DNA of 64,000 bases from Curtobacterium sp. S6 (GTDB lineage Bacteria; Actinomycetota; Actinomycetes; Actinomycetales; Micrococcaceae). The DNA lies in contig NZ_JHEL01000015.1 of NCBI RefSeq assembly GCF_000710345.2, positions 1,240,001 to 1,304,000 on the forward strand, read 5' to 3'. Both the position numbers and the translations under genes were made by a program. Positions 34,511 to 38,326 of the stretch are shown one piece after another; positions within the stretch are counted from its first letter, which is position 1, and every line of letters starts with the position of its first letter. Under the pieces are notes generated by a model. It had not been told where the DNA came from and did no database searches. It saw only the letters and a program-made list of their open reading frames with translations.

Positions 34511-35725
34511 GTGGTATCACGCGTCGCAGGAATCTATTCGCCTCGCCTGAGCGCGGGAGGCGGCGCCGAGGCCACCGTGCTGCGCGCCGCGACGGCCCTG
34601 TCCGCCGCGGGCCATGAGGTGTCGGTCTTCTCGCCGTCGGAGGTGGACGTCCAGGCCCTCGAGAGCCACTTCGGCATGAGTCTCCGCGGCATCCGGTTCG
34701 TGAAGCTCCCCGAAGAATCGGGGCGATGGTCGCGCCTCCCCGTGGCCGTCCGCAACCTTCTACTGGATCGGCGCCAAGCACGATTCCTGCGCGCCCACCG
34801 ATTGGGGCTTTTCGTCAACGCGACCTTTAAGAGCAATATCCCGGGCGTCGGTTCTCGCACGGTGTATTACACCCATTTCCCGCACCGGCTACACGTCGCC
34901 CCGAGGCGCCGACTCCACGCGGTCTACCTGGGGTTGGTTGATCTGGCGCGCCGGATCCTGCTGCATCCCGGGCATCCCCACGCGGTCCACACGTACGAGA
35001 CCGTCTTGGCGAATTCCGAATTCACCCGCCGGAACATCGCCGACCGGTGGGGACGCGAGGCCACCGTGGTCTATCCACCCTGCGGCGTCTCCCCCGCGAG
35101 CGCCGAGGAACCGCGCGAGAAGATCATCGTGACGGTCGGCCGCTTCCAGCCGGGCTCCCCCGATATCCCCCAGAAGAGCCAGGGCACCATGGTCCGCGCC
35201 TTCCGCGAGATGACGGACCTGCATCGTCGGGGGTGGCGGTTCGTCCTCGTAGGTGCGCTCGGCGACGACGAGCACAGCCGCGCGTTCTTCCGCGTGCTCA
35301 CCGAGCTGGCGGACGGTCATCCGATCGAGTTCCGCACCAACGTCTCCCGCGAGGACCTGGAATCGACCCTTCGCCGCGCTTCCGTGTATTGGCATGCCCA
35401 GGGGGTCGACGGGGACCCGATTCGTCGCCCGGAGACCCAAGAGCATTTCGGAATTTCCGTGGTCGAGGCGATGAGCCACGGGGTCGTGCCGCTCGTCTTC
35501 GGCTCCGCGGGGCCGAGCGAGATCGTCTCTCGCCTCGACCCAAGCCTGACCTGGCAGAGCACCGACGGCCTCATGGACGCGACCCGCACGCTCCTCGAGG
35601 CGGACCGGCTCCCCGAGCTCTCGCGACAAGCGCGTCAGGCCGCGGAATACTTCTCGGCCGAGCGGTTCGACCGCCAGTTCCTCACCGCGTGCGGCGTTGC
35701 GCCCACCGGTCGTAAGCCTCGGTGA
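34511..35725 (+). CDS. family 4-like glycosyltransferase
   Basis: 404 aa, GT-B fold, cytoplasmic or membrane-associated. The N-terminal half has a Gly-rich loop, RLSAGGGAEATVLRAATAL, and the C-terminal half has KIIVTVGRFQPG and the nucleotide-sugar site EHFGISVVEAMSHGVVPLVF with the E-x7-E pair. The length and C-terminal pattern resemble Alg11/PimB-like GT4 enzymes making cell-wall polysaccharide or glycolipid. The GTG at 34511 follows GGAGGT by 9 nt. It converges with the second glycosyltransferase, overlapping it by 44 bp. Donor and acceptor are unknown. Confidence 0.88.
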   Translation: MVSRVAGIYSPRLSAGGGAEATVLRAATALSAAGHEVSVFSPSEVDVQALESHFGMSLRGIRFVKLPEESGRWSRLPVAVRNLLLDRRQARFLRAHRLGLFVNATFKSNIPGVGSRTVYYTHFPHRLHVAPRRRLHAVYLGLVDLARRILLHPGHPHAVHTYETVLANSEFTRRNIADRWGREATVVYPPCGVSPASAEEPREKIIVTVGRFQPGSPDIPQKSQGTMVRAFREMTDLHRRGWRFVLVGALGDDEHSRAFFRVLTELADGHPIEFRTNVSREDLESTLRRASVYWHAQGVDGDPIRRPETQEHFGISVVEAMSHGVVPLVFGSAGPSEIVSRLDPSLTWQSTDGLMDATRTLLEADRLPELSRQARQAAEYFSAERFDRQFLTACGVAPTGRKPR

Positions 35726-36899
35726 CGATCCCGCCCCACTGGGCCACAAGATTCTCGGGAAAGTATTGGCTCGCGATCTGCCGGGCCCGTTGCCCCATCT
35801 CTTGGAGGCGATCGGGCTCCCGCAGCGTCCGCGCGAGGGCCCGCTCGTAGGCCTCCTCGGTCATCGGCGTCACCAGCACGCCGGCGCCATCGGGCAGCAA
35901 CCCACGGACCCCCGGCGAGCAATCGTAGGCGATCGAGGGGACCCCCGCCCGGCCCGCCTCGATGATCGTCATGCCGAACCCCTCGGCGCGGCAGGTCACC
36001 AGGTTGACGCTCGCGGTCTCGTAGACGGACTCGACGTCGTCGGTGGAGCCCTCGAGCACCACGCGGTCGCCCAGGCCGGCCTCGCGGATCTGCCGCTCCA
36101 GGACCTGACGCTCGGGACCGTCGCCGTAGAGCCGCAACCGCCAATCGGCGAGGTCGGGCTCGGCCGTGACCTTGGCAAAGACCCGAATCATGAGGTCGAA
36201 GAGCTTTTCGTCGACGAAACGTCCGAGCCCAACCGCCTCCGGACGGTCGAGCGCCAAGAACCTCTCGGTGGGCCGAATCGGGTTGCCCACCGAGGAGACC
36301 GGCGCGTCGATGATTCCGGAGAAGAGCTCGGCGTCGCCCTCGGACAAGGCCGTGAAGGCATCCAGGCCCGTGCCGAATTGGCCTTCGACCATGTCGCGGA
36401 GGTTCTCCTCGACATCGAGGCTCTCGTACTGCGCGTGGTGCTGACCGATCAGAGGGAAGGACCGATCTCGGAGGCGCACCCCGAGCCCCTCCAAGGCCAA
36501 GGAGGCGCTGGCGTGGGTCACGACCACGACGGTCTCCGGTCCCAGATCATCGAAGTAGGCGGCGGCCCGACGGGCGACGCGCCGCCGGTCCCAGCGCTTC
36601 CACGGCAAGCGGGCCAGACCCGCGATGCGTTGCAAAACCCCCAGGCCCTCGGCGCGGACCGTGGACCGGAAGTGCAGGTCCTCCCGGTCAAAGATGGTGG
36701 TCGTGGGCACCGTGGGAGCACGGGTTCCCGGCTTGATCGAGACGTGTTCCACCGCGAGCCCCGCCTCGCGTAACGCGTGGCTCAAGGTTTCGGTCGAGGT
36801 CGCGCCGCCGCTCATTTCGGGAATGCGGTGGCAGACGAACACGACGCGTCGGCAGTCATCCGGCCAGGTCTCGGGCCTTCCGGCGGCGTTGTGGGGCAC
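35682..36899 (-). CDS. family 4-like glycosyltransferase
   Basis: 405 aa, GT-B fold. N-terminal VVFVCHRIPEMSGGATSTETL fits the loop that binds the acceptor; the C-terminal half has LRLYGDGPERQVLERQI and the donor site EGFGMTIIEAGRAGVPSIAYD with the E-x7-E pair. The GTG at 36899 is used for the start, since it comes closest to the N-terminal strand. Its last 44 bp overlap the convergent glycosyltransferase gene, an unusual amount for two functional genes. The two GTs probably act in the same envelope glycan pathway, but no polymerase or flippase is adjacent. Confidence 0.87.
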   Translation of the reverse strand: MPHNAAGRPETWPDDCRRVVFVCHRIPEMSGGATSTETLSHALREAGLAVEHVSIKPGTRAPTVPTTTIFDREDLHFRSTVRAEGLGVLQRIAGLARLPWKRWDRRRVARRAAAYFDDLGPETVVVVTHASASLALEGLGVRLRDRSFPLIGQHHAQYESLDVEENLRDMVEGQFGTGLDAFTALSEGDAELFSGIIDAPVSSVGNPIRPTERFLALDRPEAVGLGRFVDEKLFDLMIRVFAKVTAEPDLADWRLRLYGDGPERQVLERQIREAGLGDRVVLEGSTDDVESVYETASVNLVTCRAEGFGMTIIEAGRAGVPSIAYDCSPGVRGLLPDGAGVLVTPMTEEAYERALARTLREPDRLQEMGQRARQIASQYFPENLVAQWGGIVTEAYDRWAQRRTR

Positions 36900-37020
36900 G
36901 AATTATCCTCACCGAGGGTCAGGAAGCGAACAACCTGGCCGCTCTTGCTGGGCATCGCCCAAGTGGCAGTCTCACGAGGGGGAACGCCTCGATCTTATCG
37001 CCAACAGGTCCACCGAAGGG

Positions 37021-37383
37021 CTATTCCCGCGCGACGGGGTCGTTGCGGACGGGGGCCGCGGCCTCGTCCTGCGGCAAGAGCTTGAGCCCCACCGTGGCCC
37101 CCACGATTCCGAGGATGCAGAGCACCTTGAGCCACGACACGGGCTCCCCGCCCGTCGCCATGCCGTAGACAACCGTCAGCGCCGCCCCGATGCCAGTCCA
37201 CATCGCGTAGGCGGTCCCCATCGAGATCGTCCGGGTCGCCTGGGCGAGCCCGGCCATGCTACAGACGAAGGACACCACGAAGAGCACCGTGGGCCCGAGG
37301 CGGCTGAAGCCGTCCGATGCGCTGAGAGCGGTGGCCCACACCGCTTCGAGAACCGCGCTGATAAGAAGAAAAATCCAGGCCAT
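37021..37383 (-). CDS. SMR-family transporter subunit, Gdx/SugE type (second of a pair)
   Basis: 120 aa with four transmembrane helices. N-terminal helix has the SMR Glu (AVLEAVWATALS, Glu13), the site for proton/guanidinium binding; conserved GTAYAMWTGIGAALTVVYG follows in helix 3. The C-terminus is a short charged tail. It begins 1 bp after the stop of its partner SMR gene, so the two are coupled and likely form an asymmetric dimer as in YkkCD-type pairs. A guanidine-III riboswitch precedes the pair, so the substrate is most probably guanidinium. Confidence 0.92.
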   Translation of the reverse strand: MAWIFLLISAVLEAVWATALSASDGFSRLGPTVLFVVSFVCSMAGLAQATRTISMGTAYAMWTGIGAALTVVYGMATGGEPVSWLKVLCILGIVGATVGLKLLPQDEAAAPVRNDPVARE

Positions 37384-37384
37384 G

Positions 37385-37699
37385 TCAGCTCGCCACCTTC
37401 AGGCCGACGATCGATGCCACGAGGAGGACCAGCAACGCGATCCTTGCCGCGGTGGGACGCTCCTGCCGGGTGGCAAATCCCCAGATGACGGTGAGGGTCG
37501 CGCCAATTCCGACCCACACGGCGTAGGCGGTGCCCACCGGCAAGGTCCTCATCGACCACGCGAGGCCGGCCAGGCTGACGAGCAGGGCAACGAGGAAGAG
37601 CACGGTGGGTTTCCACCGGCGCAGGCCGTGGGAGGCGGACAGCGCTGCCGCCCACACCATCTCCAGGGTCCCGGAAAGTATCAGAATGATCCACGCCAT
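37385..37699 (-). CDS. SMR-family transporter subunit, Gdx/SugE type (first of a pair)
   Basis: 104 aa, four transmembrane helices, the normal SMR length. The essential Glu13 lies in SGTLEMVWAAALSASHG; LPVGTAYAVWVGIGATLTVIWG is the Gdx/SugE helix-3 pattern and differs from the EmrE type. The ATG at 37699 has AGAGG about 12 nt upstream, immediately after the aptamer, so ligand binding would expose or hide the translation signal. First gene of the riboswitch-controlled pair that expels guanidinium in exchange for protons. Confidence 0.93.
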   Translation of the reverse strand: MAWIILILSGTLEMVWAAALSASHGLRRWKPTVLFLVALLVSLAGLAWSMRTLPVGTAYAVWVGIGATLTVIWGFATRQERPTAARIALLVLLVASIVGLKVAS

Positions 37700-37718
37700 G
37701 ACGACATCAGCCTCTCGC

Positions 37719-37760
37719 GAGTCAGTCTTGTCGTGGTGCGGGTACTGCTCCCTCGTCCGC
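37719..37760 (-). promoter_or_regulatory. guanidine-III riboswitch
   Basis: Read on the minus strand the element contains CGGACGAGG, AGTACCCG and GACAAGACTG in the order and spacing of the ykkC-III/guanidine-III aptamer. The stem GAGCAGT/ACTG(A)CTC forms with a bulged A, and the 5' GCGG pairs with CCGC in the loop, the expected pseudoknot; these bases differ from the well-known CCGG/CCGG version, which is compensatory. It ends 20 nt before the SMR start, fitting translational control. Confidence 0.88.
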
Positions 37761-37779
37761 AGGCCGGAGAGCCCGGCCT
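37761..37779 (-). terminator. short GC hairpin between sixA-like gene and riboswitch
   Basis: AGGCCGG/CCGGCCT with a GCTCT loop, just upstream of the aptamer; it may end the phosphatase transcript or insulate the aptamer fold. Confidence 0.4.
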
Positions 37780-37792
37780 CACCGGAAAGATA

Positions 37793-38326
37793 TCAACTTG
37801 TCACGAAGGCCCGCAAGAGGGCGTCGGCGCCGTCGAGGGCGGCCCACGGTTTATCCAGGGTCATGACCGCCAGGGCGGCCGGCGGGAACCCGGACGAGGC
37901 ATCCATCACGGCCTCGTAGTTCGAATCCCGCGACGCGAGCGAAAGAACGGCTTCCTGAACGGCCGGGAAATGGGCGATCACCAGCAGGCTGTGGACGGTC
38001 TCGGGGGTTCTGCCGATGACCGACAGGAGGTTTCGCGTGGGGGCGTTGTAGAGCCGATCCTCAAGGCTCGCGGTGGGCGCTTTATCCCCGAGCGCGTCGC
38101 ACACCCAGGTGCAGGTCTGACGGGTCCGCAGCGCGGACGAGGAGGCGATCATCTCGGGGACGACGCCCTCCCGAAGCATCCACCGCCCCACGGCCGGCGC
38201 GGTCTCGTGGCCCCTGCGCGTGAGGGGCCGGTCAAAATCGCTGGTGCCCCACGGCAGGTCCGCCTCCGCGTGCCGCATGATCATGAGGGTTTTGCCTTGG
38301 GAACGGGGATCGATCAGGGGGCTCAT
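37793..38326 (-). CDS. SixA-like histidine phosphatase
   Basis: 177 aa, histidine phosphatase superfamily. The signature is IMRHAEADLPWG with the catalytic Arg18-His19; SSALRTRQTC provides the second conserved Arg, and VIAHFPAVQEAV the second His. It matches SixA-type phosphohistidine phosphatases of about 160-180 aa. The gene ends 33 bp before the guanidine riboswitch on the same strand. The physiological target (a phosphotransfer protein or other) is unknown. Confidence 0.88.
   Translation of the reverse strand: MSPLIDPRSQGKTLMIMRHAEADLPWGTSDFDRPLTRRGHETAPAVGRWMLREGVVPEMIASSSALRTRQTCTWVCDALGDKAPTASLEDRLYNAPTRNLLSVIGRTPETVHSLLVIAHFPAVQEAVLSLASRDSNYEAVMDASSGFPPAALAVMTLDKPWAALDGADALLRAFVTS

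Follow-up and report, generated by a model that had tools for sequence, protein, structure and literature searches.

The stretch of DNA analysed here, referred to as the window, comprises 64,000 nucleotides of Curtobacterium sp. S6 (Micrococcaceae; NZ_JHEL01000015.1, positions 1,240,001–1,304,000 of the forward strand, assembly GCF_000710345.2). It contains a class III guanidine riboswitch that very probably turns on translation of a two-gene operon encoding a heterodimeric guanidinium/proton antiporter. Riboswitches of this class sense guanidine, a toxic waste product. Both the guanidine-III switch class and paired Gdx exporters are already known, and the window locus itself is a clean, ordinary example whose value is comparative. 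Judged from sequences across actinobacteria, the flipped outer pair of its pseudoknot, GCGG/CCGC for CCGG/CCGG, appears to mark a lineage of paired exporters.

The aptamer and its locus

The Rfam Guanidine-III model (RF01763) matches the leader of the first SMR gene (SMR1) at 48.1 bits against a gathering score of 36, with all 67 of 67 model positions aligned (E 6.6e-7 for the 64-kb window), which confirms the class assigned in a preliminary description of the locus. This is the sole match among the 150 of 1,042 candidate places scored in the 2.75-Mb genome. No Guanidine-I match was found in the genome with 134 of 134 candidates scored, and no Guanidine-II match among the 150 of 1,496 candidates scored. 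The three aptamer blocks that had been described, in order on the minus strand and with a bulged A in the stem, are present in the sequence, as is the compensatory GCGG/CCGC form of the pseudoknot, and P1 covaries in the comparison across loci. The aptamer had been placed 20 nt before the start of SMR1, in keeping with a P2 that ends 19 bases ahead of the ATG at 37699; the RF01763 match ends 16 bases ahead of it. The match also takes in a 5′ hairpin (P0) that lies outside the coordinates first given and belongs to the Rfam consensus. Among the matches listed, a P0 of at least 5 bp is found in 112 of 124 GCGG-type leaders and 73 of 109 CCGG-type leaders, compared with about 15% for shuffled letters. 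The features of the locus are collected in Table 1.

Table 1. Features of the guanidine-III locus, numbered from the first nucleotide of the window
Feature	Position	Strand	Remarks
Guanidine-III riboswitch aptamer, full Rfam model	37716..37782	-	RF01763, 48.1 bits
5′ hairpin P0	37761..37779	-	Abuts pseudoknot; 8 bp, 3-base loop; outermost 7 pairs AGGCCGG/CCGGCCT
P1 (pseudoknot) 5′ strand GCGG	37757..37760	-	
Third strand ACGAGG	37751..37756	-	37755 is C6 and 37754 is G7, guanidine contacts in T. fusca (excerpts of PMC5696562)
P2 5′ strand GAGCAGU	37744..37750	-	37745 is the equivalent of ligand-binding G17 of T. fusca (excerpts of PMC5696562)
P1 (pseudoknot) 3′ strand CCGC	37738..37741	-	
P2 3′ strand ACUG-A-CUC	37719..37726	-	Bulged A at 37722; inner four pairs alone in covariation count
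Shine-Dalgarno-like GAGAGG	37711..37716	-	Putative, from sequence
GUCGUC abutting start codon	37700..37705	-	Possible anti-aptamer; GTC at -3 to -1 enriched in riboswitch-controlled SMR genes
SMR1	37385..37699	-	104 aa, Gdx-type subunit, Arg/Lys bias -3; PF00893 78.8 bits
SMR2	37021..37383	-	120 aa, Gdx-type subunit, Arg/Lys bias +3; PF00893 81.2 bits
SixA-like phosphatase gene	37793-38326		Upstream of aptamer; PF00300
Glycosyltransferase gene	35682-36899		Downstream of SMR pair

The core segments ACGA, GUACCC and ACAAGAC are all present, including the equivalents of C6, G7 and G17, the ligand-contacting nucleotides of the T. fusca crystal structure as given in excerpts of PMC5696562. With that crystal structure the window aptamer shares the H-type pseudoknot, these three nucleotides and the nearness to an SMR start codon. 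By comparison with the same excerpts, its outer P1 pair is G-C and not C-G, its third strand is one base shorter than the T. fusca numbering implies, and its P2 carries the bulged A and has A-U at the pair equivalent to C16-G37. Among these differences, the outer P1 pair alone sets the paired lineage apart: the A-U pair occurs in 20 of 54 alignment rows and with CCGG too, and the short loop GGGAGCC is also seen with CCGG aptamers (for example L010 and L077). The assignment to the class is based on an aptamer above the gathering score, with the conserved core and covarying P1 and P2, in the leader of a guanidine-related gene.

Covariation was assessed with 56 aptamers (54 distinct) hand-picked from 258 pattern-matched ones, in which 99.8% of P1 and inner P2 cells pair and the covariation score is 0.313 versus 0.076 in shuffles, none of 500 shuffles scoring as high. 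The outer P1 pair is CG in 30 rows, GC in 23 and UA in 1, and is never unpaired. Both-sided changes are seen in two of the four P1 pairs and two of the four inner P2 pairs; the four remaining pairs are invariant in the alignment, partly since the pattern fixed their letters. The matching pattern required GGACGA, ACCC and AAGAC, whose constancy is thus partly by construction, and rows from the pattern scan were additionally bound to GCGG/CCGC, the first two P1 pairs being nearly free in rows from the model searches. The C6 and G7 equivalents (in ACGA) and that of G17 (in GUACC) are kept in GCGG and CCGG types, again partly by construction of the pattern. Of the 24 model-derived loci not fitted by the pattern, 23 keep them too, and ACGA is likewise found in these loci; the exception, L017 (32.7 bits, no SMR gene), was put aside as a probable false match. 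The core stretch is otherwise nearly constant: CAAAGAC replaces ACAAGAC in L012, L179, L209, L217 and L143 and in several CCCG/CGGG aptamers, and three more alignment rows have AAAAGAC or CCAAGAC.

The stop codon of a SixA-like phosphatase gene lies 10 bases ahead of the aptamer; the encoded protein scores 50.4 bits against TIGR00249, under its cut-off of 74.5. This phosphatase was found in 33 of 35 genomes of the genus, and a guanidine-III match in seven of the 35 (own included, 70 candidates scored per genome), one of which, G017, is below the cut-off. Four of these seven have an SMR pair and three a single SMR gene. The switch-plus-pair cassette lies 3′ of the phosphatase in 4 of 30 phosphatase loci read (own included). 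In an empty-site relative (G013, locus L318) the phosphatase is 85% identical, a glycosyltransferase homologue starts 39 bases past the end of the phosphatase match, and the interval between them has no SMR match and no aptamer. Since the cassette is present in 4 of 30 loci and absent from G013, switch and SMR pair are gained or lost as one unit at the phosphatase site. Elsewhere in the same genome (C11:58819-59444) there is a second SMR pair, likewise two adjoining PF00893 genes; it is only 25–29% identical to the window pair, and no guanidine-III match was found there.

The two SMR proteins

Both proteins exceed the PF00893 cut-off of 23.7 bits (Table 1), their genes are separated by a single base (TGA C ATG), and the best solved relative of each is Gdx-Clo (6wk5; E 2.8e-23 for SMR1 and 2.9e-20 for SMR2), which scores far better than EmrE, in agreement with the paired Gdx-type genes described earlier. 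E13, W16, S42, Y59 and W62 of the Gdx-type binding site are present in both; according to passages of PMC7695847, W16 is a conserved residue of Gdx that gives way to Gly or Ala in Qac. The SugE equivalog model NF008512 is the top-scoring NCBIfam model for SMR1 (97.1 bits) and SMR2 (78.4 bits), though at these scores, under its cut-off of 126 bits, neither is filed as a SugE equivalog.

The Arg/Lys biases of the two subunits are opposite, -3 for SMR1 and +3 for SMR2, with loop limits set by eye from the alignment. Opposite signs are found in 116 of 116 complete GCGG-type pairs among the matches listed (means -3.96 for SMR1 and +4.28 for SMR2), and 111 single SMR genes have a mean bias of 0.13, the values lying between -1 and 3. 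Excerpts of an SMR review (PMC9574504) give biases of about +4 and -4 for heterodimeric SMRs and near 0 for singletons, tie such biases to fixed antiparallel heterodimers, and put the share of pair-encoded Gdx transporters in its genome set at about 20%. Because the biases are opposite, SMR1 and SMR2 would be expected to insert in opposite orientations, giving an antiparallel pump. Each subunit keeps all of the catalytic residues checked, E13 included, as would suit two separate homodimers under one switch; this arrangement is nonetheless very unlikely in view of the opposite biases throughout the complete GCGG-type pairs listed, the near-neutral singles, and the link to fixed antiparallel heterodimers drawn in the review. 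The sequences give good support to an antiparallel heterodimer of SMR1 and SMR2 controlled by a guanidine ON switch, and the suggestion of an asymmetric heterodimer in the preliminary description gains support accordingly from the biases. The known heterodimeric Gdx exporters share with the window pair PF00893, the five binding-site residues and opposite biases in adjoining genes, and no clear difference between them was found. The loci compared here are actinobacterial and were reached via the guanidine-III switch, pairs without the switch lying outside the sample. Kermani and co-workers have reportedly published a paper on guanidinium export.

Pseudoknot form, gene pairing and descent

RF01763 was searched against 59 genomes (own and 58 relatives; 70 candidates scored per genome) and, overlapping with these, 394 class genomes (matches listed to E 1.5e-7; 12 candidates scored per genome), weak matches being missed in both. 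From the matches listed, 164 loci were kept (L001-L018 and L023-L168). They include 15 SMR pairs, 13 of them with GCGG/CCGC, 133 single SMR genes, none with GCGG/CCGC, and 16 loci without an SMR gene. A stricter aptamer pattern fits 140 of the 164. Within these 140, all 13 GCGG/CCGC aptamers are followed by two SMR genes, while the 123 with CCGG/CCGG comprise 107 with a single SMR gene, 2 with a pair and 14 without SMR; the other P1 forms, TCGG/CCGA (2), CTGG/CCAG (1) and GCGG/CCGG (1), all precede a single SMR gene. The pattern missed the remaining 24 loci, which were left out of the GUC, bias and tree counts. By eye, their P1 is CCCG/CGGG in 17, CCTG/CAGG in 1 and CCGG/CCGG in 5, the last locus being L017; 22 have one SMR gene, two (L017 and L165) have none, and none has two, so that including them leaves the picture of subtype and pairing unchanged. 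The 17 CCCG/CGGG aptamers constitute a third P1 form with a compensated third pair, all of family code f37 (for example L093, L112, L119 and L127) and with one SMR gene each.

A pattern scan that admitted only the GCGG/CCGC form found at least 118 loci in the named genomes, at least 110 of them paired. Among the matches listed, four others are cut by the end of the DNA (L177, L229, L246 and L262) and three from Microbacterium (L173, L175 and L180) have no SMR match in the stretch searched; L236, which has a pattern match and no RF01763 match, was put aside as a probable false match. The paired loci, at least 110 in number, carry 43 genus labels and belong to more than 20 named families, one label (L185, Kocuria by title) being a name-resolution error. 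Some organisms occur in both samples (L011/L177 and L015/L183 are examples), and the 123 GCGG pairs listed are not independent cases. Among the matches listed, 112 of these 123 pairs have a stop-to-start distance between -1 and +3 bases. The paired lineage is widespread, and GCGG/CCGC is its usual pseudoknot version.

A tree of 47 rows places the 14 SMR1 sequences from GCGG loci and the SMR1 of L083 in one fork (88/82), and 14 of 15 SMR2 rows together with the SMR2 of L083 and L088 in another (86/75); the SMR2 of L179 falls outside it with weak support (83/78). Support is moderate because the proteins give only about 105 columns. Pairs with CCGG aptamers nest inside, so that no bootstrap tree (0%) recovers either the SMR1 or the SMR2 label as a clean clade. 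A 162-row FastTree broadly agrees, with 2 and 4 label changes versus shuffled means of 32 and 38. The nested loci, L083 and L088, belong to the family of the window genome (genus g25) and have SMR proteins of the paired lineage under an ordinary CCGG/CCGG aptamer, a state that would represent aptamer exchange or reversion; their P2 segment CGGTTCA recurs in L114, a single-gene CCGG locus.

The simplest reading of these sequences would be one old duplication that retained the GCGG/CCGC aptamer, followed by at least one later exchange or reversion, the GCGG/CCGC pseudoknot being the form inherited in this old paired lineage. A functional match between the GCGG/CCGC pseudoknot and paired genes, for example through tuned stability or response range, would also account for its presence in 13 of 15 pairs versus 0 of 133 singles among the 164 loci listed, and for the span of more than 20 named families by the at least 110 pairs of the form-bound scan. 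It is nevertheless unlikely: the paired SMR1 and SMR2 proteins are about one lineage each, so that the association may count as one event; the pairs with a CCGG aptamer in L083 and L088 indicate that the flip is not needed by a pair; and compensatory P1 variation is found among singles too (TCGG/CCGA, CTGG/CCAG, CCCG/CGGG and CCTG/CAGG). Because the two exceptions are paired-lineage proteins with an ordinary aptamer, the trees point to common descent over functional need as the probable source of the association.

The tie between the variant and a distinct transporter lineage might instead reflect a shift of the aptamer to another ligand, such as a substituted guanidine, that is exported by the pair. 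Methylguanidine, aminoguanidine, ethylguanidine and agmatine are bound by the class via a side opening, according to excerpts of PMC5696562, where a guanidine Kd of 60 uM is quoted for the class, and a CCGG single coexists with a GCGG pair in some genomes (L054 and L158 in G094; L074 and L136 in G432). The lineage-marking change is, however, in the outermost P1 pair, outside the ligand-touching nucleotides, with C6, G7 and G17 kept, and the L083 and L088 pairs retain the ordinary CCGG aptamer; a different ligand is therefore quite improbable.

Several aptamers precede other genes. In Microbacterium sp. MYb62 (L173:2149-2762) and M. oxydans (L180:5507-6117), a GCGG-type guanidine-III match on the minus strand lies ahead of a cytochrome b gene (PF13631/PF00033 in L173; L180 has a similar reading frame) and adjoins, back to back, two Guanidine-II matches on the plus strand. 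In L173 a 94-aa ORF follows the first of these, and the second lies ahead of a gene of the sodium/calcium-exchanger family (PF01699). In both genomes that single cluster holds all the Guanidine-II and -III matches found, with 150 candidates scored per search. It would be surprising for guanidine to control respiration or cation exchange, and a literature search listed no title on it. In Microbacterium sufflavum (L175:6840-6904) a GCGG-type aptamer of 46 bits lies ahead of short ORFs of unknown function, with no SMR match downstream. Guanidine-III matches also precede genes for hydrophobic proteins of 85–93 aa (L058, L081 and L128, the last without a Pfam match), metallo-beta-lactamase-fold genes (L149 and L160, only L160 scanned) and arginase-family genes (L023, L027, L029, L031, L032 and L039; L023 scanned, the rest assigned by eye).

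Switching and the GUC abutting the start codon

Guanidine-III is described as a translational ON switch with an additional effect on RNA stability in excerpts of PMC12186494 and PMC5696562, and the ykkC-III motif had already been placed ahead of emrE and speB genes in PMC2864571. A transcription terminator as expression platform was rejected, since no terminator-like site was found in 36850-38000, in line with the translational control described for the class. Nor was a sigma-70-like promoter found near the locus. In the predicted free fold, the start region is base-paired to the 3′ half of the aptamer; with the window aptamer masked, the predicted mean probability of being unpaired near the start rises from 0.31 to 0.46. 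For 115 GCGG-type leaders listed, the mean gain in accessibility is 0.122 versus 0.054 with shuffled platforms, and for 104 single-gene leaders it is weaker, 0.054 versus 0.034. The predicted effect of masking is modest. An unusually stable leader fold is unsupported (z -0.48 versus shuffles).

As guanidinium builds up, it would bind the pseudoknot aptamer, with the third strand held in a triplex with P2. The 3′ half of the bound aptamer would then be barred from pairing with the ribosome-binding and start region, and SMR1 would be translated, followed by SMR2 through translational coupling over the 1-base gap.

In the GCGG pairs listed, GTC abuts the SMR1 start codon in 65 of 123 cases, and among CCGG singles it does so in 53 of 107 (22 of 29 and 13 of 20 by family label). 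The background, taken from other ORF starts in the named loci that have a Shine-Dalgarno-like site, is 27 of 958. GTC is found in 2 of 123 SMR2 genes listed, where the SMR1 stop codon constrains the letters, and in 1 of 33 SMR starts scored without a riboswitch, which are mostly Qac-like and count the second own pair twice (L021 and L022). GUC as a trait of SMR genes was rejected on these 33 switchless starts, but true Gdx genes are barely represented among them. Nor does GUC hold as a signature of guanidine-III targets in general: most of the arginase-family ones have CCC or the like ahead of the start, and GUC is found mainly before SMR genes. The aptamer contains GAC three times, in the third strand, the core and P2. 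The start-adjacent GUC may be an anti-aptamer to one or another of these three GACs and part of the expression platform.

In the de-duplicated CCGG loci, the letter before GUC is associated with P2 (G with C 23, T with A 4, G with A 1, T with C 3; Fisher p 0.005), with eight further G rows and two further T rows having other letters; the GCGG loci do not follow, and the GACT-aptamer rows come from three families only, 7 of 9 from one. Strict covariation with P2 did not hold up and is kept as a hint. A tentative model, possible but less likely than not, is that in the ligand-free state the third strand (GGACGAG) or the GAC core pairs with the start-touching GUC segment (UCGUC, CUUGUC or C(A/C)GUC), making the initiation site the platform; guanidine would recapture the strand into the triplex, and the GCGG/CCGC paired subtype would be a tuned form of this mechanism.

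Searches of the open literature gave no description of the pseudoknot subtype, of its tie to pairs or of the start-codon GUC, and no claim is made that they are unpublished. GCGG/CCGC is a simple sequence mark that predicts, in actinobacteria, guanidine-III control of a probable heterodimeric exporter. The GUC adjacent to the start codon gives a testable model of how this small switch works, and the paired loci with an ordinary aptamer, L083 and L088, are natural constructs bearing on whether the flipped pair matters.
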